The notes: generated by a model not told the origin, from the sequence alone. DNA of 64,000 nucleotides from a virus (IMGVR_UViG_3300011113_000642:1-64000), one strand, 5' to 3'; numbered from the stretch's first letter, positions 367 through 62,066 are shown. Made by a program: numbers and translations.

Positions 367-969
367 TTAATCGTATGTTTTTATACCACGCTTTGCTCTG
401 CGTAGTCTTGCTTCGGCAGAAGCTACATCATATTCTTGCTGTGTTGCTGGAGCTGTTTTTTTAATTTTTGCCATCTGTTCTGCTTCTAATTCATCCAAAA
501 CGTAACCAACTGGGTCTCTTACAGCTGATGCGGCATCATAAGCAACATCAAGAGCTTTTATTGTTTTATCTTGCATGGATGGAGACATCCCCGACATTGT
601 ACGTTCGGTTCCTTTGCCTAGGGAATCCATTCTTCTTTCCCAAGCTGGGGTTGATGTTATAGCATCTGCTGCAATGTCTCCTGCCATCATTCCAACGGCA
701 GCTGCACCACCTCTGGCTAAGCCGCTTGCTAAACTTCCTGCCCTTGCTCCAATATTGTTTAATGGATTAATTGCTCCGATACCACCTTTTACTATTTGTG
801 TTTGTGCATTAAAGGGAATTGGCACTGCCCGGTCTTTAAGTATATAATCTGATCTTTTTTGCATTTTTTCGAACGTGGCAGCGGATGCTTCAAGCAATTT
901 AGTAAGATTATTTACTTTTTCTTGAAGTTGTTCTGATAAATTTTTGTAGTAATTTGTTAGGTAGTCCAT
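367..969 (-). CDS. Tagged putative internal head protein 1
   Basis: This is a 200-residue protein of unknown family. Its first 20 residues (MDYLTNYYKNLSEQ and onward) are nearly identical to the starts of the proteins at 1057-1650 and 2350-2739, while the remainder is unrelated to both. The shared tag contains LSE and LQE, which fit the L-x-E cleavage preference of T4-type prohead protease gp21. The body is rich in Gly and Ala (residues about 65-105) and ends in a basic segment. A late promoter box lies exactly 5 nt before the ATG and a terminator follows, so the gene is a self-contained late unit. My inference is a protein packaged in the capsid and injected; a scaffold-associated role is the alternative. 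Confidence 0.6.
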   Translation of the reverse strand: MDYLTNYYKNLSEQLQEKVNNLTKLLEASAATFEKMQKRSDYILKDRAVPIPFNAQTQIVKGGIGAINPLNNIGARAGSLASGLARGGAAAVGMMAGDIAADAITSTPAWERRMDSLGKGTERTMSGMSPSMQDKTIKALDVAYDAASAVRDPVGYVLDELEAEQMAKIKKTAPATQQEYDVASAEARLRRAKRGIKTYD

Positions 970-974
970 AAAAT

Positions 975-982
975 TATTTATA
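975..982 (-). promoter_or_regulatory. T4-type late promoter (TATAAATA), leaderless
   Basis: A perfect TATAAATA is read on the minus strand with 5 nt (ATTTT) between its last A and the ATG at 969. In T4 late promoters transcription starts at about that distance, so the mRNA should begin at the AUG. Confidence 0.8.
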
Positions 983-998
983 AAACACTATATGCTAT

Positions 999-1030
999 AA
1001 AAAATTTTGGGCCCCCGAAGGAGCCCAAAA
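999..1030 (-). terminator. Intrinsic terminator of the second tagged gene
   Basis: This is the same TTCG-loop hairpin and T tract as at 304-338, placed just past the stop codon at 1057. It forms part of repeat copy B (995-1050). Confidence 0.85.
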
Positions 1031-1056
1031 AGTTTATTCAAAAATTTTAAATTATT

Positions 1057-1650
1057 TTATTGGCCTAGTTGTCTTCTTTTTTGAGATGCTGCAACCTCAG
1101 CTGCACTTGCAGTAGTATCGGGATCTGCGCTATCATGTACATTTGGGTTTAGATCTCTGTACCCAGCCATTCTTTGAGCATAATTTCTTTGACGAAGCTT
1201 TTTGCCTGTTCCTGGAACAGATCCACCTTTTATTGGAATATGATAATCTCGTATCACTAAATCTCCTCTGTTAACTTCCAGTGGTGGTCCTTGGTTATGC
1301 ATTGAAGCATAGATTGGATTATTTTCTACAGTTGGACGACCATCATCACTTACTGTCTCCCAGGCAAGCATTTCAACGTCTGAGTCTGAGCCAATGCCTC
1401 TAATTGTTTCCTGACCAGGAAATACAGAGAATGTTTTTTCTTTTCTGGCTCCCTTACCAAGAGGGTTTCCTTTTTTGGTTGTTTCTCTTCCTGAAATAAG
1501 AGGAACACTTTCATTGGTGTAAGGATCTATATCGGTCGGTCTCATATAAAATGTGCGTCGTTCCCTGTACTCCAATAGTTGTTCTAAATGATTAACTTTT
1601 TCTTGAAGTTGCTCGGATAAATTTTTGTAGTAGTTTGTCAGGTAATTCAT
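1057..1650 (-). CDS. Tagged putative internal head protein 2
   Basis: This 197-residue protein begins with the same roughly 22-residue tag as its neighbours (MNYLTNYYKNLSEQLQEK) and then diverges completely into a charged, Gly/Pro-containing body with no family I recognise. Two possible gp21-type sites, LSE (residues 11-13) and LQE (residues 15-17), lie in the tag. Its own late box is 5 nt before the ATG and its own terminator follows. The HNH gene directly upstream on the same strand ends inside this promoter. A shared tag with unlike bodies suggests a targeting signal rather than a common fold. Confidence 0.6.
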   Translation of the reverse strand: MNYLTNYYKNLSEQLQEKVNHLEQLLEYRERRTFYMRPTDIDPYTNESVPLISGRETTKKGNPLGKGARKEKTFSVFPGQETIRGIGSDSDVEMLAWETVSDDGRPTVENNPIYASMHNQGPPLEVNRGDLVIRDYHIPIKGGSVPGTGKKLRQRNYAQRMAGYRDLNPNVHDSADPDTTASAAEVAASQKRRQLGQ

Positions 1651-1655
1651 GAAAT

Positions 1656-1663
1656 TATTTAGT
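1656..1663 (-). promoter_or_regulatory. Late promoter variant (ACTAAATA), leaderless
   Basis: ACTAAATA on the minus strand is followed by 5 nt (ATTTC) and then the ATG at 1650. The box directly abuts the stop codon of the HNH gene. CTAAATA recurs before many genes in this window and appears to be an accepted late-box variant. Confidence 0.7.
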
Positions 1664-2041: not shown

Positions 2042-2052
2042 ATTAGCTGTTT

Positions 2053-2080
2053 ATTATATTATCTATATTTTAAAAGTCAA
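2053..2080 (-). promoter_or_regulatory. Sigma70-type early promoter of the HNH gene
   Basis: On the minus strand TTGACT (2080-2075) and TATAAT (2058-2053) are separated by 16 nt. The ATG at 2041 is 11 nt after the -10 box, leaving a leader of only a few bases and no Shine-Dalgarno sequence. Confidence 0.75.
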
Positions 2081-2088
2081 CAGTATGG

Positions 2089-2096: not shown

Positions 2097-2112
2097 TAAA
2101 AAAGGAAACAGT

Positions 2113-2331: not shown

Positions 2332-2349
2332 TAATACATAATAATTTTT

Positions 2350-2739: not shown

Positions 2740-2744
2740 AAAAT

Positions 2745-2756
2745 TATTTATAAATA
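2745..2756. promoter_or_regulatory. Overlapping divergent late promoters
   Basis: The 12-nt sequence TATTTATAAATA contains TATAAATA on both strands: minus at 2752-2745 and plus at 2749-2756. Each box is 5 nt from its start codon (ATG at 2739 on the minus strand, ATG at 2762 on the plus strand), so two leaderless messages would leave one shared site. Confidence 0.8.
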
Positions 2757-2761
2757 TTTGC

Positions 2762-3090: not shown

Positions 3091-3098
3091 AATAAATA
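3091..3098 (+). promoter_or_regulatory. Late promoter (AATAAATA), leaderless
   Basis: AATAAATA followed by 5 nt (CTTAT) and the ATG at 3104. It should drive this gene and the one that follows 1 nt after it. Confidence 0.7.
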
Positions 3099-4112: not shown

Positions 4113-4140
4113 TTGACAATCAGGAATTAAACGCTAAAAT
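4113..4140 (+). promoter_or_regulatory. Sigma70-type promoter of the GMP reductase gene
   Basis: TTGACA (4113-4118), 16-nt spacer, TAAAAT (4135-4140). The ATG at 4149 is 8 nt after the -10 box, so the message should be leaderless or nearly so. This marks the gene as early or middle. Confidence 0.75.
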
Positions 4141-6639: not shown

Positions 6640-7014
6640 ATGAATATAGACCATGTGATTGCAAATTATGTTCCTATTGCCAAGCCTCTTTCGATGGCAA
6701 TGGAAAGACAAAAAAAGCATATTTCATTGGTTTTGTATAAGCGTAAAATTGTAGCTGTTGGGCAGAATATATTTAAAACTCACCCACATACTTTTAAATT
6801 GGGTTATCGTTGTGCAGATATGCATTCTGAATTGGATGCTTATCGTAAAATACCCAAGTCTTTGCGTGGTGAAAAACTTATTTTGTTGAATTTTAGATTT
6901 AACAGATTTGGTCAATTTAGAAATTCTAAACCGTGCCCAGTTTGCGAAAAGTGGTGTGGTGAACTATTTCATAAAATATATTACACTAATGATGATGGGG
7001 TTCATATTCTATAA
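6640..7014 (+). CDS. Cytidine/dCMP-deaminase-like zinc protein
   Basis: A 124-residue protein with the zinc signature of the deaminase superfamily: HSELDA at residues 62-67 (H62 as ligand, E64 as proton shuttle) and PCPVC at 98-102 (C99 and C102 as ligands). The family hydrolyses the amino group of cytosine or related bases. It is shorter than T4 dCMP deaminase (about 190 residues) and the substrate cannot be told; free nucleotides, tRNA and DNA are all possible. It follows the Sm-like gene by 1 nt in an early operon. Confidence 0.7.
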   Translation: MNIDHVIANYVPIAKPLSMAMERQKKHISLVLYKRKIVAVGQNIFKTHPHTFKLGYRCADMHSELDAYRKIPKSLRGEKLILLNFRFNRFGQFRNSKPCPVCEKWCGELFHKIYYTNDDGVHIL

Positions 7015-7017
7015 ATA
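7010..7017 (+). promoter_or_regulatory. Late promoter (TATAAATA)
   Basis: A perfect TATAAATA overlapping the end of the deaminase-like gene. The ATG at 7025 is 7 nt downstream, predicting a 2-nt leader. Confidence 0.75.
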
Positions 7018-8782: not shown

Positions 8783-11700
8783 ATGTCTAAAAATAATTGC
8801 TGCTGTGGTGGTGGTCCTGGCCCCGGATTAACTTTTGACACATTTTGCTGTAATCCATTATTATTTACTGACTTTATTACTCTTTATGGTGATAGTATGG
8901 CACAACATGCCGAAGTTAGTCCAGGAGATTGGATTGCTTTAAAACAAACACGCGAAATTCCATCAACTACAGAAGCCAACTGTGCATTTAAAAGCACGGG
9001 TTCTTGCAACTGTTGTTGTGATTGTGCTACATCGGCAGCACTTGGAAAAAATGTTGATAAAGAAACAGGCAATAATACATCATTAAATGCAAATAATTTA
9101 TTTGATAAAAATAATAAAGATGGTGTAATTATTAAAAATGGTAAACCAAAACCACAAAATAAAAAAAGAGTTGATAATGGTTTCTTTTTTTCTGGAACTA
9201 AATTAAATTTAAGTCGTCAAAAAGAAACCAATCCATCAATAATTAAAAAAACAAATTTAAATGGAACTGTTTCATATAATTATAATTTTAGTTTTACAAA
9301 AAATATTGCAACCGATCCAACCAATAAAGCGCAAAATATTAGTTCAGGAGAAAATGTTACTTTAGTTTTTGGTGAAGAAAAGGTTGAAGGTAATTACGTT
9401 TTAGGTGATGAAGTAGATATTTCTAAGCCAATAGTATTTACAGATCAATTTCAAGAAAACACCACTCCTGCATTTTCCACAGATTCTGATCAGGGTGGAG
9501 TTCCACCATTTGGTGAGGTTGAAAGAAATGATTGGGAAAATGAAATTCCTTGCGTGTGGAAATGCAATACACTTTTTTGTTGTGAAGATGCAACAACTTG
9601 TCCGCGTACTCCTTGTGAAGATTGCTGTTGTAGGCACAGAGAAGTAATTGGAGTTAGAGGATATCAACCAGCATATTTTGCTTACAAATATAGTGGATGC
9701 CATTTTACTTGGTATCCCAGAGAAATGTTATTTGGAAAAGATCCATATGTACCACAATGTATGAATAATGAAGTTCAAACTTTGGGAATATATTGTCCGC
9801 CATATGATGCAAATGACTTTTCTATAAAAAAGGTAACAACTTCATGTGGTGTAATGAGCATGTCAGCTCCGTGGCAAGGAACAGTAAGTAGACGTGATGT
9901 AGATATTCCATTTTGGTGTTCCGAAGCCAATCCTCCTGCACTACAAACAAGAATAACAACGGTACCAGGAACAATAAATCACTGGGCATGTCACTGTGCA
10001 ACAGTTCCCCATATTCATGGAGGTATGGTAGATTCTCTTACAAATACAATTAATGTAAGCCAGAGACCAGGACAACTAGGATATGTTTCTCAATTTAGAC
10101 CATTTTATCCTCCAATGGAAGCATCAGATCTTGGATGTTGTTGGTGTTCTTCTGTAAATCCACCTTCTCCAGCTGGAATTCAATTTCCTGTTCCAGAATG
10201 GATGGGAACAAAAGCAGGATGTAATACTTATTATCCATTTACAAATGGAATAGGCAAAGTTCCTAATTTTACAAATCCATGTGCTCCAGGTTTTGCTTGT
10301 CATTATTTTCATGGAATAAATCCAAATTATTTAACAGGAAACCCTGGTTACACGACCGAATGTTTTAGAAATGGAATATCACCATATTTACAAAAAGTGG
10401 CAAAAACTAGATTTAAAGCAGCATATGAAATATTTTTGCATGGAGATGGAGCTTTTAATGATTTTGGGCCAAATTACGTATTAAGTGAAATAAAAGTAAA
10501 TATGTTGTTGAGAGATTATGAAATTGCATTTAGAGAAGTTCCAAATGCAAAAACTTCTCTCAGAGATCAGTGTTTAGGATTTGTACAATTAGAACATCAT
10601 TTTGAATGTTGTGCTTTTAGATCAGATGTTGGGATAGCAACAAAAAATCCAGGAATTTTAATAAATAATTGTAACATAAGAATACCTCCCTTTGAAAGTG
10701 AAGGATATGCTGGTCACTTTACACCAGCTTCTGGACCTACTTGTTTTACGGCTGCACCAACTTCCGGTAAAGTAAGAGCAAAATATACCCCATATCATTA
10801 TAGCGCTTGTATGTGGCAAATAAAAAGAGGAATTCCACGAAGAGTAATGTACGCTGGTTCAGGGATTCCAATTTTTAAATTTGATTTGGTAAACATGGAA
10901 AATTGGACTTTAAAAAATCCAAATAGAGTATTAGATTTACCAGCATTTACTGTAGAAAGATTTATAGAACATTATTATCGTTATTATTTTGGATTAATTA
11001 GTTTTAATGGTGGTGGGTGTGGTGCAAATGGCCAGCCCCCCGAACCGATTGAATGGTCTTATGGTCACTACATAAACTCATATGAGTATGTTACCGGCTG
11101 GTTAGAAAAAATGGTTGAAGCCGGAATTTTAAGAATTAAAGACCATGCAATTGATATTGCTAAAGAAGTAAATCAACTTGTTGGAAGTGCATATTATGAT
11201 TCAAGTGGAGTTTTAGTTATTAGTCCTGAAGCTGCTAAAGAATGTGGTGGTGTTAATGGATTTTTTGATCTTCTTAACTTTTTTGAAGTCAGTCCCGGAG
11301 ATATATCCGTAACACCTAAAAAAGTTAAAGAAAAGCTATTTAATACCGCCGGAGCATATAGTTATGATGGACCCGGAACAGAAACCGGATCTAACGCAAC
11401 TTTTATGCGTGCATTTTTACCAAGAAGAGCTCGTTTACCCATCGGTCCTTTAAATTCTAAAGTAGAAGCTTGGGGGTGCAATGGAAATAGCCCTACAACG
11501 CAAATTGAAGGCTGTACAACATGTTTTGGTTTATCTATAGATGGAGTTTCATGCTGCTTACCTGAAATAAACTGTCCTTCATATGTTATTGACAGCATTA
11601 ATGTCCCACCATTATTAAATACCACAGAAGGAAATTTTAGTGATATACAGCCAAATAAAGTTATTTGTGGTTTGGCTGGAACTTTTGTAATTGACAGAAT

Positions 11701-17306: not shown

Positions 17307-17314
17307 CCTAAATA
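17307..17314 (+). promoter_or_regulatory. Late promoter variant (CCTAAATA)
   Basis: Box 7 nt before the ATG at 17322; predicted leader 2 nt, no Shine-Dalgarno sequence. Confidence 0.6.
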
Positions 17315-19967: not shown

Positions 19968-19995
19968 TTGAATTCTTAAAACTAGGTGGTATACT
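19968..19995 (+). promoter_or_regulatory. Sigma70-type promoter of gene 33, leaderless
   Basis: TTGAAT (19968-19973), 16-nt spacer, TATACT (19990-19995), then 7 nt to the ATG at 20003. Transcription should start at or next to the AUG. Confidence 0.7.
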
Positions 19996-23500: not shown

Positions 23501-23505
23501 CCCAA

Positions 23506-23513
23506 TATTTAGA
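23506..23513 (-). promoter_or_regulatory. Late promoter variant (TCTAAATA), leaderless
   Basis: Minus-strand box followed by 5 nt (TTGGG) and the ATG of gene 4 at 23500. It lies back to back with the plus-strand late box at 23521-23528. Confidence 0.75.
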
Positions 23514-23520
23514 TAAATTC

Positions 23521-23528
23521 TCTAAATA
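23521..23528 (+). promoter_or_regulatory. Late promoter variant (TCTAAATA)
   Basis: Plus-strand box 7 nt before the ATG at 23536, giving a predicted 2-nt leader. With the box at 23506 it makes a divergent late promoter pair. Confidence 0.7.
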
Positions 23529-23535
23529 TTCATAT

Positions 23536-27966: not shown

Positions 27967-27974
27967 TCTAAATA
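27967..27974 (+). promoter_or_regulatory. Late promoter variant (TCTAAATA), leaderless
   Basis: Box followed by five T and the ATG of gene 25 at 27980. Confidence 0.75.
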
Positions 27975-30073: not shown

Positions 30074-30526
30074 ATGATTAGTAAAATGATTATGTATGCT
30101 GCCTCCCTCGCATCCCGGGGGATTGGTAACAAGAAAACAGATATACCAACAAAGCAACTTAGAGTTTTATCTTGTTTTGGTGGTGTCTCAATTGAAAGTG
30201 CTTGTCCATTTTTAGCAAAATCTCAGCAGGATTCTACCAGACATTTTTGTACTAAATGTGGTTGTGGAGATAAACAAAGTACTTGGCTTATCCAAGAAGG
30301 AGACGAATATTCCAAGCTGGATTATCCCGTATTAAATTGTCCAATGAAAATGCCGGGATTTAGCAATTATGACCCAAATTTTTATACACAAGAAACTAAA
30401 GCAAGAAAACAGCAAATTGAAAATTTGAATCCAGAACAACTTTCAGTGATCCAAGTCACCATAGGTGCCAGTGAAACTAAAGAAAAGTTGATGGAAGAAA
30501 TAAATAAGGTTATTGAAAATACATAA
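30074..30526 (+). CDS. Cys-rich conserved phage protein
   Basis: A 150-residue protein with Cys at LSCFGG, ESACPF, HFCTKCGCGD and LNCPMKM, a spacing fit for a zinc site or an iron-sulfur cluster. I recall similar proteins (SRGLxNKKxDxxTKQLRVLSCFG) next to baseplate or neck genes in aquatic T4-like phages, without known function. The C-terminal 40 residues are helical and charged. Its location between wedge and neck genes suggests a virion part or assembly factor with a bound metal. Confidence 0.6.
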   Translation: MISKMIMYAASLASRGIGNKKTDIPTKQLRVLSCFGGVSIESACPFLAKSQQDSTRHFCTKCGCGDKQSTWLIQEGDEYSKLDYPVLNCPMKMPGFSNYDPNFYTQETKARKQQIENLNPEQLSVIQVTIGASETKEKLMEEINKVIENT

Positions 30527-30529
30527 ATA
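30522..30529 (+). promoter_or_regulatory. Late promoter (CATAAATA), leaderless
   Basis: Box overlapping the end of the Cys-rich gene, followed by 5 nt (TTTTC) and the ATG of gene 13 at 30535. Confidence 0.8.
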
Positions 30530-34803: not shown

Positions 34804-34811
34804 ACTAAATA
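34804..34811 (+). promoter_or_regulatory. Late promoter variant (ACTAAATA) of gene 18
   Basis: Box 24 nt before the ATG at 34836. The leader contains AGAGG, so sheath mRNA has a normal ribosome site. Confidence 0.65.
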
Positions 34812-40733: not shown

Positions 40734-40741
40734 TATAAATA
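40734..40741 (+). promoter_or_regulatory. Late promoter (TATAAATA) of gene 22
   Basis: Perfect box 21 nt before the ATG at 40763, with AAGGA in the leader. Confidence 0.75.
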
Positions 40742-41805: not shown

Positions 41806-41813
41806 ACTAAATA
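41806..41813 (+). promoter_or_regulatory. Late promoter variant (ACTAAATA) of gene 23
   Basis: Box 30 nt before the ATG at 41844; the leader has AGGAG. The most expressed gene of the phage thus uses a leadered message. Confidence 0.7.
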
Positions 41814-43253: not shown

Positions 43254-43284
43254 TAGGTAACTAGAAGAAAGTAAGTAATAACGA

Positions 43285-43318
43285 AGACCTCCCCAGAAAT
43301 GGGGAGGTCTTTCTTTTT
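43285..43318 (+). terminator. Strong intrinsic terminator after gene 23
   Basis: A perfect 10-bp stem AGACCTCCCC/GGGGAGGTCT with a 6-nt loop (43295-43300), followed by TTCTTTTT. Confidence 0.95.
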
Positions 43319-43319
43319 G

Positions 43320-43327
43320 GATAAATA
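43320..43327 (+). promoter_or_regulatory. Late promoter (GATAAATA), leaderless
   Basis: Directly after the gene 23 terminator; 5 nt (ATAGT) separate it from the ATG at 43333. Confidence 0.78.
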
Positions 43328-46500: not shown

Positions 46501-46528
46501 AGTGTACTTTGAAGGTAAATAAAGTCAA
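46501..46528 (-). promoter_or_regulatory. Sigma70-type promoter of uvsY, leaderless
   Basis: Minus strand: TTGACT (46528-46523), 16-nt spacer, TACACT (46506-46501), then 6 nt (GGTAAT) to the ATG at 46494. Confidence 0.7.
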
Positions 46529-49765: not shown

Positions 49766-49781
49766 CAAAGTGAGTATTTAA

Positions 49782-50390: not shown

Positions 50391-51012
50391 AAAATTTTTT
50401 GCTGAACACAATTTTGACGAATATATCAGAAATAAATTTTTTTCAGATTATTCAAAACCCGGGACAATAGTTGAAGTTGGCGCAGCTACTCCGGATTTTA
50501 TTTCAATGTCCAGACATTTTAAATTAAATAACTGGCGGACAATCGTTGTGGAACCAAATCCCCATTTTGTTGAACTACACAAGCAATTAAATAATGAAAT
50601 ATATCCTTATGCTTGTTCATTTGAAAATAAAGATGATGTAGATTTTACATTAGTTCACGTCAATAATGGTCAAATTACAAATCATTCATTTTCTTCTTTT
50701 TATATAAAAGAAGAATATATTGCAAAAAATCACAACTGGCCCACTACATTACCAAAAACTACAATCAAAGTTAAACAGCGAACTTTAGATTTTATTTTAC
50801 AAGAAGCAAACGTTAATGAAATTGACTTGCTTGTGGTTGATGTAGAGGGTTGGGAAATTGAAGTAATAAAAGGATTAACAAGAATAAAACCAAAACTTAT
50901 AATATTGGAAAATATATTTAATAATATGGATTATAGAAGATATATGGTCTCCATTGGTTATAGTTTTTTAGAACATCGTTACAACGATGATGTATACACC
51001 TTAGTATCTTAA
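50383..51012 (+). CDS. FkbM-family methyltransferase 2
   Basis: A 209-residue relative of the preceding enzyme: TIVEVGAATPDFISMSRHFKLNNWRTIVVEPNPHFVELHKQL (SAM motifs I and II, V-E-P-N-P), TLDFILQEANVNEIDLLVVDVEGWEIEVIKGL (FkbM signature D-x-E-G-x-E) and a closing YSFLEHRYNDDVYTLV. Sequence similarity to copy 1 is low, suggesting different substrates rather than a recent duplication. Confidence 0.85.
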   Translation: MIKKFFAEHNFDEYIRNKFFSDYSKPGTIVEVGAATPDFISMSRHFKLNNWRTIVVEPNPHFVELHKQLNNEIYPYACSFENKDDVDFTLVHVNNGQITNHSFSSFYIKEEYIAKNHNWPTTLPKTTIKVKQRTLDFILQEANVNEIDLLVVDVEGWEIEVIKGLTRIKPKLIILENIFNNMDYRRYMVSIGYSFLEHRYNDDVYTLVS

Positions 51013-51014
51013 AT

Positions 51015-51929
51015 ATGAATAATTCATTAGTTATTGTGACGGGAATTTTAGGTCAAGATGGTCATTACTTAAATCATATTCTTTTAGAAAAAGGATTTGA
51101 CATTATTGGTATTGACAAAGTTAAAAATCAAACACATAAAAATAAAAATTATAATTTATTATTTGAGAATCTTACAAATTTAAATGTAGTAAACAATATT
51201 GTAAAAAAGTATAAACCTTATGCGGTTTTTAATTTAGCAGGATTTTCAAATGTTTTTGACCCGTGGGCAGACCATGATACTGTAGTAGAATCAACGAGCA
51301 GAATTCCAGAAAATTTTATTAGTGCAATACGCCATCACTCCCCAGAAACAAGATTTTGTCAGGCATCATCTTGTTTAGTATTCGGAAATACTGACACGAT
51401 AGTTCAAACAGAAAAAACCGCAAGAGCCCCATCATATCTTTATGGTGTATGTAAAAATTACATAGATACCCTAATACAAGAATCTAGAAAAGATTTAGGA
51501 CTTCATTTTACTTCGGCTATATTTTATAATCACGAATCACCGTATAGAGGTGATCAATTTTTTACAAAAAAAATAATAAATTTTGCAAAAACTTACAATA
51601 AACAAAATATATTACAATTAAAAAATTTAAATGTTCAAAAAGATATTGGTTTTGCGGGCGAGTATATGGAAGCTATGTTTAAAATAGCAACATCGTCAAA
51701 ACCTGATGACTATATTGTTTCCACAAATAAACTTGTAGATTTAAATTTTATTATTGATAAAATTTGTCAGCTATCTGGTCACAATCTTTGGGACAATATT
51801 ACCGTAGATGATCGACATGGTAATAACAAAATATTATGTGGCGACAATTCTAAAATTAAAACAGAACTAAACTGGTCACCGAAATATGACTGGGAATCGA
51901 CAATAGAATTAATTTGGAACAATATATAA
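51015..51929 (+). CDS. NAD-dependent sugar epimerase/dehydratase (GMD-like)
   Basis: A 304-residue short-chain dehydrogenase related to GDP-mannose 4,6-dehydratase. Seen: VTGILGQDGHYLNHILLEKGF (NAD(P) site G-x-x-G-x-D-G), the catalytic pair YGVCK (Y-x-x-x-K, about residue 147-151), IFYNHESPYRGDQFFTKKI (GMD-type N-H-E-S-P-x-R-G) and a substrate-binding C-terminus. It is more diverged than the GMD at 53209 and may use a different nucleotide sugar or act as a reductase/epimerase of the same pathway. Confidence 0.75.
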   Translation: MNNSLVIVTGILGQDGHYLNHILLEKGFDIIGIDKVKNQTHKNKNYNLLFENLTNLNVVNNIVKKYKPYAVFNLAGFSNVFDPWADHDTVVESTSRIPENFISAIRHHSPETRFCQASSCLVFGNTDTIVQTEKTARAPSYLYGVCKNYIDTLIQESRKDLGLHFTSAIFYNHESPYRGDQFFTKKIINFAKTYNKQNILQLKNLNVQKDIGFAGEYMEAMFKIATSSKPDDYIVSTNKLVDLNFIIDKICQLSGHNLWDNITVDDRHGNNKILCGDNSKIKTELNWSPKYDWESTIELIWNNI

Positions 51930-51930
51930 T

Positions 51931-51958
51931 TTGTTTTTGATAAAATACGTGGTATAAT
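51931..51958 (+). promoter_or_regulatory. Internal sigma70-type promoter of the sugar operon
   Basis: TTGTTT (51931-51936), 16-nt spacer, TATAAT (51953-51958), with AAGGA before the ATG at 51977. It allows separate expression of the second half of the cluster. Confidence 0.6.
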
Positions 51959-51976
51959 TTAAACTTAAGGAAAAAT

Positions 51977-53206
51977 ATGAATAAAGAATTTAATTTACTC
52001 AGTCTTGATAGTCTTTATGTATCTGATTTTTTAAATGACAACGAAAAGCCGAGAGGTGGAAAATACTCATTAGACATTGTGCTAGATACCACAATTAATG
52101 CACCACGTTTAAAAACAGTGGCACCATCGGGTGTAATGTATGGCAAGTATTGGTATCGTTCTGGTATCAATTCATCAATGAAAACCGAACTACAAAATAT
52201 CGTAGAAACGATTAAATCACGATTTAAACTTGTAGAAAATGACATTTGGTTGGATATTGCGTGCAATGACGGCACGCTTCTTTCTTTTGTCCCAAAGACT
52301 TGCATTCGTGTTGGTATCGATCCAGCTGACAATTCTTATGTCCAAGAATCAAAGCAATTTGCCAATGCAATTGTTCAAGATTATTTTTCTTTAAATGCTT
52401 GGCAAAAAACTCCTTTTGCAAAGCAAAAGGCAAAAGTCATCACTTCTATCGCGGTTTTTTATGATTTAGATGACCCAATGTCATTTGTAAATGACATAAA
52501 AAACGTCTTAGCAAAAGATGGTTTGTGGGTGTTACAACTAAGTTATACCCCACTTATGTTAAAGCAACTTGCTTTTGACAATATTTGCCATGAACACGTT
52601 TACTATTATTCAGTAGAAAATTTAAAAATTTTGTTTGAAAAATGTGGAATGAAAATAGTAGACGTTGAATTAAATGATGTCAACGGAGGTTCATTTCGTG
52701 TCTTTGTTATGAACAAGGAAGGAAATAAATCAAAGTACGGGACAGCTCCTCTAAGAGACGTTGCTTCATATAGAATTGATTCACTTCTTCAATACGAAAA
52801 AACTTTAAATCTTTCTTCTATTAAAACATGGAATGATTTTAAACAAAAAATCGATAATTTAAAAGATGAAGTAGTATCCTTTATCAAGGAAGCCAAAAAA
52901 AATGGCAAAACTGTTTGGGGATATGGCGCTTCTACCAAAGGAAACACATTATTGCAGTATTTTGGTTTAGATCATACTATGATTGATGCCATAGCCGAAA
53001 GAAGTCCCTATAAGTGGGGATTGAAGACCGTAGGAACAGGAATTCCAATCAAATCTGAGGCAGATATGCGTCAAGCACACCCAGATTATCTACTTGTACT
53101 ACCGTGGCACTTTATATCTGAATTTATTGAAAGAGAAAAAGACTACTTGGGCAAAGGTGGAAAGTTTATTGTTCCATGCCCTTCATTTAAAGTTATTGGA
53201 CTATAA
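51977..53206 (+). CDS. Sugar C-methyltransferase-type enzyme
   Basis: A 409-residue two-domain SAM methyltransferase. Residues about 85-200 hold the SAM fold (DIWLDIACNDGTLLSFVPKTCIRVGIDPADN); ICHEHVYYYSVENLKILFEKCGMKIVDVELNDVNGGSFRVFV is the catalytic H-E-H-V segment; the C-terminal VWGYGASTKGNTLLQYFGLD...DYLLVLPWHFISEFIEREKDYLGKGGKFIVPCP is the second Rossmann-like domain. This architecture is that of C-methyltransferases acting on keto-deoxy sugars. The usual N-terminal zinc domain (C-x-x-C) is not seen. It may act on the 4-keto sugar made by the next gene. Confidence 0.85.
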   Translation: MNKEFNLLSLDSLYVSDFLNDNEKPRGGKYSLDIVLDTTINAPRLKTVAPSGVMYGKYWYRSGINSSMKTELQNIVETIKSRFKLVENDIWLDIACNDGTLLSFVPKTCIRVGIDPADNSYVQESKQFANAIVQDYFSLNAWQKTPFAKQKAKVITSIAVFYDLDDPMSFVNDIKNVLAKDGLWVLQLSYTPLMLKQLAFDNICHEHVYYYSVENLKILFEKCGMKIVDVELNDVNGGSFRVFVMNKEGNKSKYGTAPLRDVASYRIDSLLQYEKTLNLSSIKTWNDFKQKIDNLKDEVVSFIKEAKKNGKTVWGYGASTKGNTLLQYFGLDHTMIDAIAERSPYKWGLKTVGTGIPIKSEADMRQAHPDYLLVLPWHFISEFIEREKDYLGKGGKFIVPCPSFKVIGL

Positions 53207-53208
53207 TT

Positions 53209-54198
53209 ATGACACAAAAAATTGCTTTAATTGCTGGTGTAAACGGACAAGACGGTTCCTATTTGAGCAAATTGCTTCTTGATAAGGGATATAGGGTTAT
53301 CGGTTTGAAGAGAAGAACAAGCTCAATAACAACAGATCGCATAGATGATATTATTTCTAATCCAAATTTTGTATTAAGATACTATGATCTTTTGGATGCG
53401 GCTTCTGCTTATAGTTTAATCTCTGAGTACAAACCAGATGAAGTATATAATCTAGCAGCACAGTCTCACGTAAAAGTATCTTATGAGTTACCTCACTATA
53501 CAGTGGATACTATTGTGACTGGTACTTTAAACCTTTTAGAGGCTATCAAATTACTAAAACCAAATACAAAATTTTATCAGGCATCTTCCTCCGAAATGTT
53601 TGGAGACAACCCAGTTATTCCTGACAAGGGATATAATGAAGATTCACAGTTGATACCAGTATCGCCTTATGCAGCAGCTAAGGTGTGTGCCCATCATCTT
53701 GTTCAAATTTATAGAAAATCATATAATTTACATGCATCATGTGGAATTCTTTTTAATCATGAATCACCTTATAGGGGTGAAACATTTGTAACTAAAAAAA
53801 TTACCATGGCTGCCGCCAAGATAAAGCTAGGAATGCAAAAAAAACTTTATCTAGGAAATCTCTATAGCAAAAGAGATTGGGGGTTTACTGGTGACTACGT
53901 AAAAGCAATGTGGCTAATGCTACAGCAAGAAATTCCAGACGATTATGTTATAGCCTCTGGGACAACCCACACGATTGAAGAATTTTTAGTTCAAGTTTTT
54001 GATTATGCCGAGTTGGGCGATTATAAACAGTTTGTAGAAATTGATTTAAAATTATTTAGACCTTCGGAAGTGCCCTACCTATTGGGCGATTCAACAAAGG
54101 CTAAAACCAAATTAAACTGGAACACCGATACGAATATGATTAAACTTGCACATATGATGTATGACTTTGATTATAAAAGTTTTAGTCTTAAACAATGA
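53209..54198 (+). CDS. gmd: GDP-mannose 4,6-dehydratase
   Basis: A 329-residue full-length GMD. It converts GDP-mannose to GDP-4-keto-6-deoxymannose. Seen: GVNGQDGSYLSKLLLDKGYRVIGLKRRTSS (NADP site), NLAAQSHVKVSYELPHYTVD, YQASSSEMFGD, the Y-x-x-x-K pair SPYAAAKVCAH, FNHESPYRGETFVTKKIT and LYLGNLYSKRDWGFTGDYVKAMWLMLQQ, all GMD hallmarks. The product leads to GDP-fucose, GDP-rhamnose, GDP-perosamine or C-methylated sugars. The neighbouring C-methyltransferase and GT11 are likely users. Confidence 0.95.
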   Translation: MTQKIALIAGVNGQDGSYLSKLLLDKGYRVIGLKRRTSSITTDRIDDIISNPNFVLRYYDLLDAASAYSLISEYKPDEVYNLAAQSHVKVSYELPHYTVDTIVTGTLNLLEAIKLLKPNTKFYQASSSEMFGDNPVIPDKGYNEDSQLIPVSPYAAAKVCAHHLVQIYRKSYNLHASCGILFNHESPYRGETFVTKKITMAAAKIKLGMQKKLYLGNLYSKRDWGFTGDYVKAMWLMLQQEIPDDYVIASGTTHTIEEFLVQVFDYAELGDYKQFVEIDLKLFRPSEVPYLLGDSTKAKTKLNWNTDTNMIKLAHMMYDFDYKSFSLKQ

Positions 54199-55157
54199 AA
54201 ATTGCACTTATTGGCCCCGGAATAATGGAAATACCTCCCCCTAAATGGGGAGCTGTAGAAATGGTTATATGGGATAACTACAATATTTTAATGGAAGCTG
54301 GGTATCAAGTAGACATTATAAATACACCAAACCATCAAGCCATTGTAGATACGGTAAATAGAAATAACTATGATGTAATTCATTTACATTATGATGTTTT
54401 TTCTTATTTGATACCGTATTTTAAAGCTAAAGTAAAAATTTTGTCAAGCCATTATCCTTTTATAGAAAAAAAGGAGCAATACCCCGCAGATGGTTATGAT
54501 AAAATCGTAAATCATATTATCAACAATAAAGATTTTTATATTTTTGCTTCGTCACAAAAAGACATAAACACATTTGTTTCGTATGGTGCAAATGAAGAAA
54601 AAACTTTTTTGTGTCGTTTAGGTGTAAAGCATGATTCTTATGATTACAATTTTAATGCTTTATATGATAAAACTCTTTGTTTTTCTCAGATTGTAGATAG
54701 AAAAAGACAGTTTAAAATTCAAGATATAAATGGTATTGATTTTGTTGGGCGATTAGATGATTCAAAATTTGTAAATAAAAAAACTTATTTGGGTGAATTC
54801 GACAGAACCATTTTAAACAAAGAAATAACCAAATATACAAATTTTATTTTGTTAAGTAAAACAGAAAATACAACGCCTTTAGTTGTGAAAGAAGCGCTAA
54901 TATGTGGACTTGGTTTAGTAGTTACTGAACCAGTTGCATACGAGCTCGATTTATCCAAACCATTTATCTCAATAATACCAGAAGATAAAATTGATGATAA
55001 ACAATATATTGCAAATACTGTAAATCAAAATAAAAACATCTCTATGAACATGAGAGATGAGATAAGAAATTATGGTATTACAAAGTTTGACATAAAAAAT
55101 ATTTTATTAAATGAATATATTCCAAAAATAAAAAAGTTAATGGAGACAGCTAAATGA
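54195..55157 (+). CDS. Glycosyltransferase, GT4-like, copy 1
   Basis: A 320-residue GT-B transferase: the N-terminus MKIALIGPGIMEIPPPKWGA with VEMVIWDNYNILMEAGYQVDIINTPN, an H-x-H-Y segment (VIHLHYDVFSYLIP), VGRLDDSKF in the linker and the C-terminal TENTTPLVVKEALICGLGLVVTEPVAYEL (E-x-x-x-x-x-x-x-E donor site). A clear paralogue lies at 55956. It is coupled to gmd and the following gene by ATGA overlaps. The sugar donor is not predictable. Confidence 0.8.
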   Translation: MKIALIGPGIMEIPPPKWGAVEMVIWDNYNILMEAGYQVDIINTPNHQAIVDTVNRNNYDVIHLHYDVFSYLIPYFKAKVKILSSHYPFIEKKEQYPADGYDKIVNHIINNKDFYIFASSQKDINTFVSYGANEEKTFLCRLGVKHDSYDYNFNALYDKTLCFSQIVDRKRQFKIQDINGIDFVGRLDDSKFVNKKTYLGEFDRTILNKEITKYTNFILLSKTENTTPLVVKEALICGLGLVVTEPVAYELDLSKPFISIIPEDKIDDKQYIANTVNQNKNISMNMRDEIRNYGITKFDIKNILLNEYIPKIKKLMETAK

Positions 55158-55954
55158 AATGCAAATATACATTTTTTTATGTAGTTGGGGGAAAAGATTT
55201 ATATTATGAACAACTTCAAACATCAATAAAAAGTTTGCAAAGAATTAATTCACCATTTAAAATTAAAATTTTAGATATTGGTAAAAAACTCAAGTCAGAA
55301 AACAACATGGAAGTTATACACACCGATGTCGATATAAAAGATAAACACGTGTTTTGGCAATACAAATATAACATATGCCAAACATTAGATACTGACCATG
55401 GTATCTATCTTGATTGTGATACTGTTGTGTGTTATAATATGTTGGAAAATTTATTCAACAAAATAGGTTCTTCTTTTGGAGCAATTCCACATTTTTATGT
55501 TAAAAATTTTGAAAACTATTTAAATATTTTTAATACAACAAAAACAAAAGAGTATTGCGAGCAACACAACCTATCTAAGGAACATGTCTTTAATACTGCT
55601 GGTGTTTTTTTATTTTCAAATAATAAAGCCTGCAAAAATATTTTAAAAGAAACGTTTGATTTGCACAACACAGTTTATTCTGAAAAAACATCATACCAAG
55701 AAGGTTTATATGATGAAACCTTTTTGTCTACAGTTTTAAAAAATTACCACTATACCAAATTGAATGGATCTGCAAACCATTGTTCTGCCAATCTGATGCC
55801 TATTGAAATTCAAAATAATATATTGGTTGGAAAAAATCCATTTGATGATAATTACGAGCCAATTTTTGTTTTACACGGTTCTTCTAAAAGACAAAAAGAG
55901 GCTCAAGATTTTACTGGAAATATAAAAGAAAAAATTATAGAGTTTTGGAGTTAA
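55154..55954 (+). CDS. Glycosyltransferase, GT8-like
   Basis: A 266-residue GT-A enzyme. Seen: TFFYVVGGKDLYYEQLQTSIKSLQRI (nucleotide-binding start), the D-x-D motif in GIYLDCDTVVCYNM (about residue 92-97), HVFNTAGVFLFSNNKAC and a C-terminal H-G-S (VLHGSSKRQ), the usual GT8 metal-ligand His. GT8 members add Glc or Gal to LPS cores or make glycogenin-like primers. It lies between the two GT4 paralogues in the operon. Confidence 0.75.
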   Translation: MKCKYTFFYVVGGKDLYYEQLQTSIKSLQRINSPFKIKILDIGKKLKSENNMEVIHTDVDIKDKHVFWQYKYNICQTLDTDHGIYLDCDTVVCYNMLENLFNKIGSSFGAIPHFYVKNFENYLNIFNTTKTKEYCEQHNLSKEHVFNTAGVFLFSNNKACKNILKETFDLHNTVYSEKTSYQEGLYDETFLSTVLKNYHYTKLNGSANHCSANLMPIEIQNNILVGKNPFDDNYEPIFVLHGSSKRQKEAQDFTGNIKEKIIEFWS

Positions 55955-55955
55955 T

Positions 55956-56924
55956 ATGAAAATTGCAATTGTTGGTCCTGGCTTAATGGAAATACCCCCT
56001 AAAAATTGGGGGGCGGTAGAATCATTAATATGGGATTATTATGAATATTTAAAACAAAAAAATGTTTTGGTAGATATCATAAATCATCCAAACATGAATG
56101 AAGTCGCCAATCATCTCAATAATACAGAATATGATTTCATTCATGTTCAATATGACGATCATGCTGGACCTTTAAGCCATCTATTAAAAAAGCCTTTTTG
56201 TACAACAATGCATTATGGTTATATAAAAGAACACTATCCAACCTATGGAGGTTGGAAACCAATTTTTGATGGTATTTTAAAAAGTCCGGGAATTTTTTCT
56301 TTATCACCAGAAATTACTAAATTAGTAAAAAGCTCTGGCTATTCTAGTTTTATTAGAACGTTGCGTAATGGAGCTAGAACTAAAGATTTTGCGTTTAAAC
56401 ACGAAGGAACAAAGAGCGCAGTCTGCCTTGGAAAAATTGAAAACAGAAAACAACAAAGTTTTTTAGCAAGTAGATGTAAAAATAAATGTAACATAGATTT
56501 TGTGGGACCGATTGTAGACTCTTCCTTTAAAGAAAACAATACCTGCAAATATGGTGGTGTATGGAGCAAGCCAGATCTGTATCAAAAGATGACAGATTAT
56601 AAATGTTTGGTTTTACTCAGTGATGGTGAAGCTGCACCTCTGGTTGTACCCGAAGCCCTTTCAGCTGGTTTAAGCATAGTTGTTTCGAAAACAGCAGCAG
56701 CTAATTTAGACACCTCCCTCCCCTTTATACATGTTATCGATAACCCGAAGCAAGAAAACATTGAACATATTATAAATGAAACTATAGAAAACAACTCTAA
56801 ATATAGAAAACAAATAAGGCAGTATGCACTTGATGTTTTTGATTGGAATGTAGTGTGTAACGATTATATCAAATATGTGAAAGAATTTATAAATGAAACT
56901 AGCCTTTGCCACAATAGCAACTAA
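55956..56924 (+). CDS. Glycosyltransferase, GT4-like, copy 2
   Basis: A 322-residue paralogue of the protein at 54195: MKIAIVGPGLMEIPPKNWGA with VESLIWDYYEYLKQKNVLVDIINHPN, TMHYGYIKEHYPTYGGWKPIF, CLGKIENRKQQ and SDGEAAPLVVPEALSAGLSIVVSKTA (donor-site E). The two genes flank the GT8-like gene, implying duplication and then specialisation. Its 3' end overlaps the GT6 gene by 32 nt. Confidence 0.8.
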   Translation: MKIAIVGPGLMEIPPKNWGAVESLIWDYYEYLKQKNVLVDIINHPNMNEVANHLNNTEYDFIHVQYDDHAGPLSHLLKKPFCTTMHYGYIKEHYPTYGGWKPIFDGILKSPGIFSLSPEITKLVKSSGYSSFIRTLRNGARTKDFAFKHEGTKSAVCLGKIENRKQQSFLASRCKNKCNIDFVGPIVDSSFKENNTCKYGGVWSKPDLYQKMTDYKCLVLLSDGEAAPLVVPEALSAGLSIVVSKTAAANLDTSLPFIHVIDNPKQENIEHIINETIENNSKYRKQIRQYALDVFDWNVVCNDYIKYVKEFINETSLCHNSN

Positions 56925-57603
56925 CAAGTACGCAGCGTATGCAAAAAATTTAATTGAAACAATAGATCGGTATGCGTTTACAGGATCTAATGTTGAAGTT
57001 TGTGTAGTTATTTATACAAACAATGAAAAAAATTTTTTAAATTATACGCCAACAAACATAAAAATAAAAACGGTAAATATAACACATGTTCCGTTTCCTT
57101 TGATTTCTTTATTAAGGTATCACTACTACACCTCCGATGATTCTTTAAAAAATTATGATTATGTTTATCACATTGATTGTGATATGTTGTTGCAAGACAA
57201 TGTTGGTGAAGAAATTGTTGGAGATCGAGTTTGTGTGGAACACCCGGGTTTTTTCCAACAATTTAATAATTTAAATTTTCCATATGATAGAAATCCTGTT
57301 GCAAATGCCTATGTTAAAATGGGTTTAGGTACAAAGTATTATCAAAATTGTTTGCAGGGTGGTTCTGTTAATGAATTTTTTAACATGAGCGTAGAACTGC
57401 GAAATCGAATAGAAGAAGATTTAAGAAAAAACTATATTGCGCTGTGGCACGATGAGAGTTATATGAATAAGTATATGGTGGACAATCCTCCAACCTTAAT
57501 TTTGCCAACAACATATGCTCAACCACAAGGCTGGCCATCATACGGGCCAACTAAAATTTTACATGTAGACAAAAATCATTTAGAGGTTAGAAAAACAAAA
57601 TGA
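56893..57603 (+). CDS. GT6 family (ABO blood group-type) glycosyltransferase
   Basis: A 236-residue GT6 enzyme. It lines up with the catalytic domain of human ABO transferases without their membrane anchor: LLRYHYYTSDD, the metal-binding D-x-D as HIDCDML (D95, D97), EHPGFF, the acceptor-site LQGGSVNEFF, and WHDESYMNKY with PPTLILPTTY, where ABO enzymes read W-H-D-E-S-H-x-N-K-Y. GT6 enzymes add Gal or GalNAc alpha-1,3 to an acceptor that is often fucosylated alpha-1,2. That fits the GT11 fucosyltransferase in the same operon. The final 30 residues hold HVDKNHLEVR. Confidence 0.9.
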   Translation: MKLAFATIATNKYAAYAKNLIETIDRYAFTGSNVEVCVVIYTNNEKNFLNYTPTNIKIKTVNITHVPFPLISLLRYHYYTSDDSLKNYDYVYHIDCDMLLQDNVGEEIVGDRVCVEHPGFFQQFNNLNFPYDRNPVANAYVKMGLGTKYYQNCLQGGSVNEFFNMSVELRNRIEEDLRKNYIALWHDESYMNKYMVDNPPTLILPTTYAQPQGWPSYGPTKILHVDKNHLEVRKTK

Positions 57604-58496
57604 ATTATTTAATAACAGGTGGTGCCGGATTTATTGGATCAAATTTGGTCAATAAGTTGGTTGATGATGGACACATCGTGTCTGTCATAGACAATCTTTC
57701 TTCTGACGCACACGACTCATTTTATTTCAATAACAGTGCATCATATTATCTTTACGATGTAAATGATCATGTAATGTGTTCTGATGTCTTTAACAGACAT
57801 AATCCCGATTACGTCCTTCATCTCGCAGCTGAAGCAAGAATACAAAACTGTGTTGAAGACCCCACAAAGGCATACGAAACAAATCTAATTGGAACATTAA
57901 ATATTTTGTCTTTGTGTAAAAAATATAATGTTAAAAGACTTGTTTTGTCTACAACATCGGCAATATATGGATTAAAAAATACGGGCCCTTTAAACGAGGA
58001 TATGCCCCCAGATTGTTTAAATGCATACTCACTGAGTAAGTACAATGCCGAACAAGCATGTAAACTTTATAGTTCTATGTATGGAGTAGATACTGTTGGA
58101 TTGCGATATTTTAATGTCTATGGTCCAAACCAACCAAAAAAAGGACCTTATGCTCCAGTAATAGGGGTATTTACCAGACAAAAAAAAGCGAATCAAAACC
58201 TAACGGTTGTAGGTGATGGTGAACAAACTAGAGATTATGTCCACGTGTCTGATGTAGTCAAAGCTAATTTGTTGGCCGCAACACATAAAAAAAATTTATT
58301 TGGTGAAATTTTTAACGTTGGAACTGGTAAAAATTATTCTGTAAATTGGATTGCATCAAAAATAGAGCCAAATTCAACCAAAATTACTCGCATACCACCA
58401 AGACAGGGCGAAGCGCGGGATACAATAGCAAATACCTCCAAGATTGAAAATATTTTAGGCTGGAAAGCAGATATCTCATTAGAAAACTGCATTTAA
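57600..58496 (+). CDS. NAD-dependent UDP-sugar epimerase
   Basis: A 298-residue extended SDR of the UDP-glucose 4-epimerase (GalE)-like group: MNYLITGGAGFIGSNLVNKLVDDGHIVSVIDNLSS, LHLAAEARIQNCVEDPTKAYETNLIGTLN, STTSAIYG, the catalytic YSLSKYNAEQ, RYFNVYGPNQP, VGDGEQTRDYVHVSDVV and FNVGTGK. It probably interconverts UDP-Glc/Gal or UDP-GlcNAc/GalNAc, which would supply the donor for the GT6 enzyme just upstream. Slightly short at the C-terminus (typical 310-330). Last gene of the operon. Confidence 0.88.
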   Translation: MNYLITGGAGFIGSNLVNKLVDDGHIVSVIDNLSSDAHDSFYFNNSASYYLYDVNDHVMCSDVFNRHNPDYVLHLAAEARIQNCVEDPTKAYETNLIGTLNILSLCKKYNVKRLVLSTTSAIYGLKNTGPLNEDMPPDCLNAYSLSKYNAEQACKLYSSMYGVDTVGLRYFNVYGPNQPKKGPYAPVIGVFTRQKKANQNLTVVGDGEQTRDYVHVSDVVKANLLAATHKKNLFGEIFNVGTGKNYSVNWIASKIEPNSTKITRIPPRQGEARDTIANTSKIENILGWKADISLENCI

Positions 58497-58501: not shown

Positions 58502-58530
58502 TTGACAATATCTTTTTATTAGATTATAAT
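58502..58530 (+). promoter_or_regulatory. Sigma70-type promoter of gene 55, leaderless
   Basis: Perfect TTGACA (58502-58507), 17-nt spacer, TATAAT (58525-58530), then 6 nt (AGCATT) to the GTG start at 58537. Confidence 0.85.
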
Positions 58531-60155: not shown

Positions 60156-61873
60156 TTGAATTTTTATCTGTTCGTTTTAAAAACTTTGGTTCATTCGGGG
60201 CTAACTTTTCTGAAATTAATTTAAATAGCCGTAATACCACATTAGTGACTGGTACAAATGGCCACGGAAAGTCCTTTGCTTTATTGGACTCTTTGTGCTT
60301 TGGATTGTTTGGAAAGCCCTTTAGGCCCATTAACATACCTCAATTAGTAAATACTGTAAATGGTAAGAACTGTGTCGTTGAAATAGAGTTTAATAAGGGT
60401 AATAGTCATTATTTAATTCGTCGTGGTTTATCCCCAAAAATTTTTGAAATTTATAAGGATAAAGAACTTATAGATCAAAATGCCAAATCCAAAGATTATC
60501 AAGAAATGTTTGAAGAACAAATTCTTGGATTTGATTATTCTGCATTCAAACAAGTAGTCATTCTTGGTAAGTCTAACTTTATACCTTTCATGCAGCTAAC
60601 GCCTGCAGAGCGCAGAAAGATTATTGAAGGTTTACTGGAATTAGATATTCTTGCTGATATGAATGTCTATGTTAGAGGACAACTAGGTTCTTTAAAAGTT
60701 TCTATTGCAGAGCATGACAGTTTACTTAAAATTGCACATGAAAAAATAAAGTCTCAAAAAGAATTTATTGATCAGGTAAAAACAAGTAATGCTGATGATA
60801 TTAAACTTTTAGAAGATAGAATTAAAGAATATCGCGACCAAATAAAAGAAGACACCAAACAAAAAACCATTTTACTAAGTAAGCATACCGCTTTACAAGA
60901 TACTGCAAAAAGTATTAAGAAAAAAATTGACGCTTTAAAAGATGTTCCTGGTATGTTATTAAAAGCAGAAACACTTAAAGAAACAATCTTAGATGAGATT
61001 AAAACTTTAGAGCAAAATGCTATATGCAAGTGCTGTGGCCAATCTTTACCAGAAGAACAAAGAAAAAAACATATAGCAGAAAAAAGAGAAAAAGCAGAAA
61101 ACTGCTTTGAGGCTTTAAAGGTTGCTACAAGAAAAACTAAAGAACTGGATGAATTAAACAAATCTTATAATGAACTTTTGCCAGAAATAGAAACTTTGGC
61201 AAATGATATAAATGGTTACAGTTATAGAATTGGCAATAGTGAATCCAATATAAAAGTTTTGGAAAAAGATAAAAAGGATAAAGAAGCAGCAAACAACCTG
61301 ACTAATTTACTAGTCAGTTTGAAAGATTCCGAGGATAAAAAGAATGAACTTGCACAAAAATTGGAAGGCTATATTCAAGAACAAATTCATCATGATGTTG
61401 TATATGATATTCTCAAAGATAGTGGACTTAAGAGCAGGATTATTAAACACTATGTTCCCATCATCAATGGACTCGTCAACAAGTTCCTCGGAAAACTTAA
61501 TCTCTATGTTGACTTCACCATCGATGAGGAGTTCAAGGAAACAATCAAGTCACGATACAGAGATGCATTCTCATATTCCTCTTTCTCTGAGGGAGAGAAA
61601 CAACGCATCGACCTTGCCATACTGTTAACTTGGCGAGAAATTGCAAAGATGAAAAACAGTTTAAACTGCAATCTTTTAATTTTTGATGAAATTTTAGATT
61701 CATCTTTGGATGCTGCTGGTACAGAGGCTTTCTTAAAAATTCTTAATAAAATGAAAAATAAGTGTTCTATTTTCATCATTAGCCACAAAGCAGATCAACT
61801 TATTGATAAATTTGATCAATCATTGCAGTTTGAAAAGAAAAATAATTTTTCTAAGATTAAAACACAGATATAA
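60152..61873 (+). CDS. 46: Recombination ATPase subunit gp46 (Rad50-like)
   Basis: A 573-residue SMC-type ATPase (T4: 560). Seen: Walker A GTNGHGKS (about 35-42), the Q-loop in FKQVVILGKSNFIPF, coiled coils with the zinc hook CKCCG (about 291-295), the ABC signature FSEGEKQRIDLAI and Walker B LLIFDEILDSSLD followed by the H-loop FIISHK. The C-terminal catalytic region near 61430-61640 uses more GC-rich codons than the coiled coil, which may reflect recombination. Confidence 0.97.
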   Translation: MIEFLSVRFKNFGSFGANFSEINLNSRNTTLVTGTNGHGKSFALLDSLCFGLFGKPFRPINIPQLVNTVNGKNCVVEIEFNKGNSHYLIRRGLSPKIFEIYKDKELIDQNAKSKDYQEMFEEQILGFDYSAFKQVVILGKSNFIPFMQLTPAERRKIIEGLLELDILADMNVYVRGQLGSLKVSIAEHDSLLKIAHEKIKSQKEFIDQVKTSNADDIKLLEDRIKEYRDQIKEDTKQKTILLSKHTALQDTAKSIKKKIDALKDVPGMLLKAETLKETILDEIKTLEQNAICKCCGQSLPEEQRKKHIAEKREKAENCFEALKVATRKTKELDELNKSYNELLPEIETLANDINGYSYRIGNSESNIKVLEKDKKDKEAANNLTNLLVSLKDSEDKKNELAQKLEGYIQEQIHHDVVYDILKDSGLKSRIIKHYVPIINGLVNKFLGKLNLYVDFTIDEEFKETIKSRYRDAFSYSSFSEGEKQRIDLAILLTWREIAKMKNSLNCNLLIFDEILDSSLDAAGTEAFLKILNKMKNKCSIFIISHKADQLIDKFDQSLQFEKKNNFSKIKTQI

Positions 61874-61876
61874 ATA
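61869..61876 (+). promoter_or_regulatory. Late promoter (TATAAATA)
   Basis: A perfect box at the end of gene 46, upstream of the early promoter for the small basic gene; it could give late expression of the gene 45 region. Confidence 0.55.
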
Positions 61877-61878
61877 TA

Positions 61879-61907
61879 TTGGACAAACAGTTTTTTGGAG
61901 ATATAAT
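61879..61907 (+). promoter_or_regulatory. Sigma70-type promoter of the small basic gene, leaderless
   Basis: TTGGAC (61879-61884), 17-nt spacer, TATAAT (61902-61907), then 6 nt (AGCAAC) to the ATG at 61914. The -10 to start segment closely matches that of gene 55 (TATAATAGCATTGTG). Confidence 0.65.
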
Positions 61908-61913
61908 AGCAAC

Positions 61914-62066
61914 ATGAATAATGAGAGTTTTGAGAAGTTTACCAATCGCCGTAAGAACAAGCAATCTAACTTCGGAAAAAAGCAACAGAATAGAAATAAG
62001 CGTGGTAACAGACACGCACAAAAGCAGCAACTAAACGACTCTGTATATCGTAAAGATTTTGATTAA
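61914..62066 (+). CDS. Small basic, RNA-binding-like protein
   Basis: A 50-residue, very basic, Asn/Gln/Lys/Arg-rich protein (NRRKNKQSNFGKKQQNRNKR) with an acidic end (YRKDFD). It is probably disordered and could bind nucleic acid. The ATG at 61914 is placed by the sigma70-type promoter 6 nt upstream; a longer in-frame version starting at 61803 would lie inside gene 46. It lies between genes 46 and 45, where T4 has small genes such as rpbA; no similarity to RpbA was seen by eye. Confidence 0.6.
   Translation: MNNESFEKFTNRRKNKQSNFGKKQQNRNKRGNRHAQKQQLNDSVYRKDFD

Follow-up and report, generated by a model that had tools for sequence, protein, structure and literature searches.

This locus raises the question of whether a T4-like virus can place its promoters so close to its start codons that the messages begin on the AUG itself. 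Leaderless mRNAs are translated from a 5′-terminal AUG, a phage example being that of lambda cI. The virus record is 94,854 bases long, and the window analysed here covers its first 64,000. The phage encodes the late sigma factor gp55 (PHROG 234, E = 2e-51), and a T4-type box ([AC]TAAATA/TATAAATA) is found upstream of the late structural genes for gp4, gp13, gp22, gp23, gp25 and the tail tube. A sequence-only reading had placed nine late starts exactly 5 nt after such a box and several early starts just past a -10 box, and had proposed two classes of message, one leaderless, and possibly delayed or under different regulation, and one with Shine-Dalgarno (SD) leaders. The names 'gp18', 'gene 33' and 'guaC' used below are taken from that reading; the open reading frame (ORF) in the gp18 position has no PHROGs match.

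In order to measure spacing, late boxes were searched as [AC]TAAATA and the nucleotides between box and ATG were counted. All nine late starts read as claimed (Table 1). Over the whole record an ATG stood at offset 5 after 9 of 70 late boxes, with 1.52 expected from the mean of the other offsets (binomial p = 2e-5), while 300 Markov shuffles of the record gave a mean of 1.54 such ATGs and a maximum of 6. Five more late starts lie at 7 nt, three in the window (7025, 17322 and 23536) and two in the record outside it (71635 and 74385); these would have 2-nt leaders. The gp22 and gp23 genes and the gp18-position gene begin 21-30 nt after their boxes and have leaders with an SD sequence, as had also been read. 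Our own gene caller picks starts by coding score and misses some leaderless ones, and its counts were kept out of the main result.

Table 1. Promoter elements and bidirectional promoter regions in the window, with the start codon that each precedes and the spacing between box (late or -10) and start.
Feature	Position	Strand	Start	Spacing (nt)	Remarks
Late box ATAAATA	975..981	-	ATG 969	5	
Late box CTAAATA	1656..1662	-	ATG 1650	5	
Late box	2745..2751	-	ATG 2739	5	Overlaps opposite-strand box
Intergenic region, 22 bp	2740..2761		2739(-)/2762(+)		Two overlapping, outward-facing putative leaderless late promoters
Late box	2750..2756	+	ATG 2762	5	
Late box	3092..3098	+	ATG 3104	5	
guaC-like gene, early promoter	4113..4140	+	ATG 4149	8	TTGACA-16-TAAAAT
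Late box	7011..7017	+	ATG 7025	7	Predicted 2-nt leader
Late box	17308..17314	+	ATG 17322	7	Predicted 2-nt leader
Gene-33-position ORF, early-type promoter	19968..19995	+	ATG 20003	7	TTGAAT-16-TATACT; read by eye
gp4 late box	23506..23512	-	ATG 23500	5	gp4 = PHROG 218
gp4/gp53 region, 35 bp	23501..23535				Putative bidirectional leaderless promoter region; 31-35 bp in relatives
gp53 late box	23522..23528	+	ATG 23536	7	
gp25 late box	27968..27974	+	ATG 27980	5	Baseplate wedge PHROG matches
gp13 late box	30523..30529	+	ATG 30535	5	PHROG 211
gp18-position gene, leadered late box	34805..34811	+		24	SD
gp22, leadered late box	40735..40741	+		21	SD AAGGA; PHROG 237
gp23, leadered late box	41807..41813	+		30	SD AGGAG; PHROG 138
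Second tail-tube-like gene, late box	43321..43327	+	ATG 43333	5	Directly past terminator-like hairpin; PHROG 45
uvsY, early promoter	46501..46528	-	ATG 46494	6	TTGACT-16-TACACT; PHROG 231; read by eye
Gene 55, early sigma70 promoter	58502..58530	+	GTG 58537	6	TTGACA-17-TATAAT; gp55 = PHROG 234
Early promoter	61880..61907	+	ATG 61914	6	TGGACA-16-TATAAT

The scan of the whole genome and its relatives, which had been proposed beforehand, gave a sharp peak at 5 nt. Portal, gp55 and gp53 proteins, together with the portals of Mosig and Melnitz, served to retrieve related viral contigs. These contigs and stretches of the pelagiphage and Melnitz isolates together yielded 826 box-gene pairs in 143 protein families, almost all of the pairs coming from uncultured viral contigs. 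Since the loci are related, sequence counts are not independent and the family-level count is the safer figure. Among the 143 families the median spacing was 5 nt in 36, 4 nt in two, 6 nt in one, 7 nt in eight and 8 nt in four; no family had a median of 9 or 12 nt, six had 10, one had 11 and four had 13. The leadered class, which carries the SD sequence, formed a broad spread of medians from 14 to 39 nt.

The class goes with the gene. The second tail tube gene has 5-nt spacing in 41 of 50 orthologues and gp4 in 27 of 32; for gp25 the spacing is 5 nt in 15 and 6 nt in 11 of 27 (26/27 at 5-6 nt), and for gp13 it is 5 nt in 20 and 8 nt in 9 of 45, with 33 at 5-8 nt. The gp53 start lies at 5-7 nt in 29/32. 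Leaderless orthologues hold the 5 nt despite changes in the letters of the spacer. The genes for gp22, gp23, portal and protease and the gp18-position gene almost always begin 14-40 nt from the box, with freely variable spacing. Early, late and regulatory genes are all represented in the leaderless class. In a group of distant gp53 relatives (L321-L334), 21 of 22 box-linked starts have a spacing of 5-7 nt, leaving a single leadered one; this may be a lineage whose late genes are exclusively leaderless.

In T4 the late box occupies -13 to -6 (PMC1524935), which makes the sixth base past the box +1; with a 5-nt spacing, that base is the A of the AUG. The position used here is transferred from T4. 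Initiator-like base preferences at and next to this position agree with a T4-like +1. At the sixth base, 340/450 leadered promoters have a purine and 30/43 promoters of the 7-nt class have an A. In the 5-nt class a pyrimidine directly precedes the AUG in 150/168 (89%), compared with 177/450 at the same position of leadered promoters (Fisher p = 3e-31). By sequence, then, the predicted +1 falls on the start codon, the position that defines a leaderless mRNA. SD-like words were found in 364/450 leadered (81%) and 3/168 leaderless (2%) promoters, a comparison biased toward the leaderless class in that its search space is only 12 nt, 7 of them the box. The spacing peak and these counts back the proposed two-class layout, in which leaders of a predicted 0-3 nt lack an SD sequence and longer ones carry it. 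Phage-encoded ribosomal protein S21 was considered as a reason for the leaderless mode and rejected, the gene being absent from the 94.9-kb record (itself a fragment); one of the 15 records examined has S21.

The early starts of gene 55, uvsY, the gene-33-position ORF, the guaC-like gene and the gene at 61914 lie 6-8 nt past their -10 boxes, in agreement with the sequence-only reading (Table 1). Four -35/-10 promoters in the record have a start codon 6 nt past the end of the match (58537, 61914, 79676 and 84338). Raw TATAAT-to-start counts were too noisy on their own, and requiring a -35 element resolved the early class. For gp55, a leaderless-spaced -35/-10 pair is present in 28 of 31 distinct relatives, the -35 TTG 33-35 nt (mostly 34) and the -10 box 5-6 nt (mostly 6) before a start codon that is nearly always GTG; the same arrangement precedes 1.7% of random ATG/GTG codons in these loci. 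That some early promoters share the design is thus borne out, with gp55 conserved in it. Only the window's clade shows a clear early-promoter peak; HTVC008M and Mosig do not, and inspection by eye did not reveal the arrangement at gp55 in cyanophages or pelagiphages. SAR11 bacteria were checked for leaderless genes of their own by the distance from TATAAT to ATG, which gave no clear peak in SAR11 loci, in 12 genomes and in 800 kb of sequence.

We also examined the intergenic regions that hold two such promoters. Of 26 compact bidirectional regions found, 24 are of the gp4/gp53 type and 31-35 bp long; HTVC008M has one such region of 26 bp. Terminator-like hairpins with T-runs lie just before two of the leaderless late boxes, at about 980-1030 (-) and about 43280-43320 (+), and hairpin, box and start together resemble a terminator-promoter-start fusion.

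Several other features of the window were noted. Three paralogues on the minus strand (367-969, 1057-1650 and 2350-2739) have the common N-terminus M[ND]YLTNYYKNL[SC]EQLQEKV, each behind a 5-nt late box; they have no PHROG match, and one relative (L303) has two further copies, likewise at 5 nt. A single ORF of 2,490 aa with a Cys/Gly-rich N-terminus, at 8783-16255 (+), probably encodes a large virion or fibre protein. The gene run between uvsY and gene 55 (47212-58496, +) reads like sugar-nucleotide/glycan enzymes. No relative of the guaC-like protein was found in bacterial genomes, and the only tRNA found is Asn-GTT.

Isolated phages and control genomes were compared in the same way. An ATG is present at offset 5 after 13 of 63 boxes in Pelagibacter phage HTVC008M (p = 4e-10) and after 8 of 52 in Mosig (p = 9e-6). 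The counts were not significant in T4 (1/42), in four cyanophages (1/85) and in 800 kb of SAR11 bacterial DNA (19/1160). When only frames of 35 or more codons are counted, 12 starts in HTVC008M fall at 5 nt, and all 12 coincide with RefSeq annotated starts; Mosig has 7, and Melnitz has one in the 50 kb covered. None was found in 50-kb stretches of T4, Syn9, S-PM2, P-SSM2, S-SM2, phiM12, Cr30 and DLP6. Megablast returned no near-identical phage isolate, the closest isolates being ∼50% identical in portal protein, and a gp20 tree places the window's clade with DLP6/phiM12, on a long branch. The best reading of these comparisons is that two or more T4-superfamily lineages have the leaderless layout; the trait may have arisen once or twice. 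A leaderless design in T4-like phages, as the sequence-only reading had it, is not general: T4, cyanophages, phiM12, Cr30 and DLP6 are without it in the stretches tested, and it is in the window's clade and among pelagiphage-type T4-likes that it is common.

We consider it very probable, from the placement of boxes and starts, that gp55-type late promoters occur here in two arrangements, one leaderless by design beside the SD-led one. In the SD-led arrangement, 14-31 nt separate the box from the start codon, and the SD sequence lies in the leader between them. The second arrangement has only 5 nt (sometimes 6-8) from box to start, and RNA polymerase would initiate on the A of the AUG or at most 3 nt before it; the ribosome would then have to bind a 5′-terminal AUG with no SD sequence to pair with. 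Host-type early promoters, that of gene 55 among them, are in some cases placed alike, 6 nt from the -10 box to the start. Many late genes and the late sigma factor gene should thus have an mRNA that begins at, or within about 3 nt of, the start codon. Promoters further upstream could also transcribe most of these genes, as leadered or polycistronic messages. The advantage may lie in compact, overlapping or back-to-back promoters without leaders, and possibly in distinct translational control. Only tentatively would we go further and propose leaderless initiation as a standing second mode of translation in this T4-superfamily clade, serving many late virion genes and the GUG-started late sigma gene, with bidirectional promoters down to 22 bp and with phage messages favoured, or timed apart from those led by an SD sequence, as the ribosomes or the initiation factors change in infection.

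The reading that competes most closely grants that leaderless transcripts are made but holds that they give little protein, translation proceeding by coupling on polycistronic read-through while the adjacent promoter adds template or is a relic of compaction. The gp25 and gp13 genes do start 8-13 nt past a same-strand gene, and many operon-internal starts in this phage are also without an SD sequence. However, gp4/gp53 and 2739/2762 are divergent and 43333 follows a terminator-like hairpin, so these starts either have no same-strand upstream gene to feed them or are probably cut off from it. Read-through would also not require exact spacing, yet the spacing is conserved, and we regard this reading as unlikely. 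Less probable still is a start point upstream or downstream of that in T4, which would leave short leaders or truncated starts and a 5-nt spacing with some other cause. The start point is indeed borrowed from T4, and some genes of the same families lie at 6, 7 or 8 nt, but two features put +1 at the sixth base: the purine preference there in leadered promoters and the pyrimidine ahead of the AUG in the 5-nt class. Initiation past the AUG would moreover destroy conserved N-termini; gp4 MAY..PKN aligns with T4 gp4 MAY..PKN.

Bacteria poor in SD sequences are known to have AT-rich signals close to their starts (PMC3160421), and the box might by analogy be an element of translation, for instance one that binds S1, and not a promoter. 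This is improbable in view of the same motif standing 14-31 nt from the SD-led gp22 and gp23 starts and of the early version being a two-part -35/-10 promoter instead of a single AT-rich patch. Chance or base composition has next to nothing left to explain: these genomes are AT-rich and ATAAATA is frequent in them, but the shuffles stayed below the nine starts observed, SAR11 DNA, which is AT-rich too, T4 and cyanophages have no peak, and the offsets beside 5 nt are nearly empty. A chance effect of AT-rich DNA was ruled out on these controls. The two-arrangement reading is the one that we retain.

Pelagiphage-type T4-like viruses are abundant, yet a pelagimyophage survey reported late-promoter prediction to be unsuccessful in these genomes, their late promoters being undetectable by the usual method (PMC7029224). 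A promoter abutting the start codon offers an explanation for this, and makes it possible to call late genes and true start codons. For phages that are already cultured, the layout gives nucleotide-exact predictions of transcript starts. Moreover, some T4-like phages appear to have SD-led and others leaderless versions of the orthologous genes gp4, gp13, gp25 and gp55, which can serve as a natural comparison for the switching of translation initiation.

Among known systems, leaderless middle and late phage mRNAs have been described for phiYS40 of Thermus, where IF2 is raised and IF3 lowered (PMC3594737). The likeness lies in the large number of leaderless messages; phage and host lineage are unrelated to those of the window phage, and leaderless genes make up more than one third in the phylum of the phiYS40 host (PMC3160421). 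Leaderless genes with a -10 box adjoining the ORF occur in Deinococcus-Thermus and Actinobacteria (PMC12340547, PMC3160421), the same geometry of promoter and start as in our early class, to which the window phage adds promoters of a phage late sigma factor. The Pelagibacter myophages HTVC008M and Mosig have the 5-nt class in common with it (12 and 7 starts), a class that their survey (PMC7029224) does not describe, but their gp55 looks leadered, unlike that of the window's clade. We found no description of a leaderless design in T4-like phages in the open literature, most subscription journals lying outside the search. The T4 late promoters, which depend on gp55/gp33/gp45 and have the box at -13 to -6, share the box sequence, and the leadered class of the window phage is T4-like. 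In the T4 stretch, however, none of 42 boxes has an ATG frame of at least 35 aa at 5 nt and 18 have one at 14-40 nt, whereas the window phage has the 5-nt class. Likewise, the T4 gp4/gp53 gap is 47 bp, with crossed boxes and SD leaders, while that of the window phage is 35 bp with outward boxes, each abutting its start. Leaderless phage mRNAs are already known from lambda cI and phiYS40; what is new here is a variant within the T4 superfamily.
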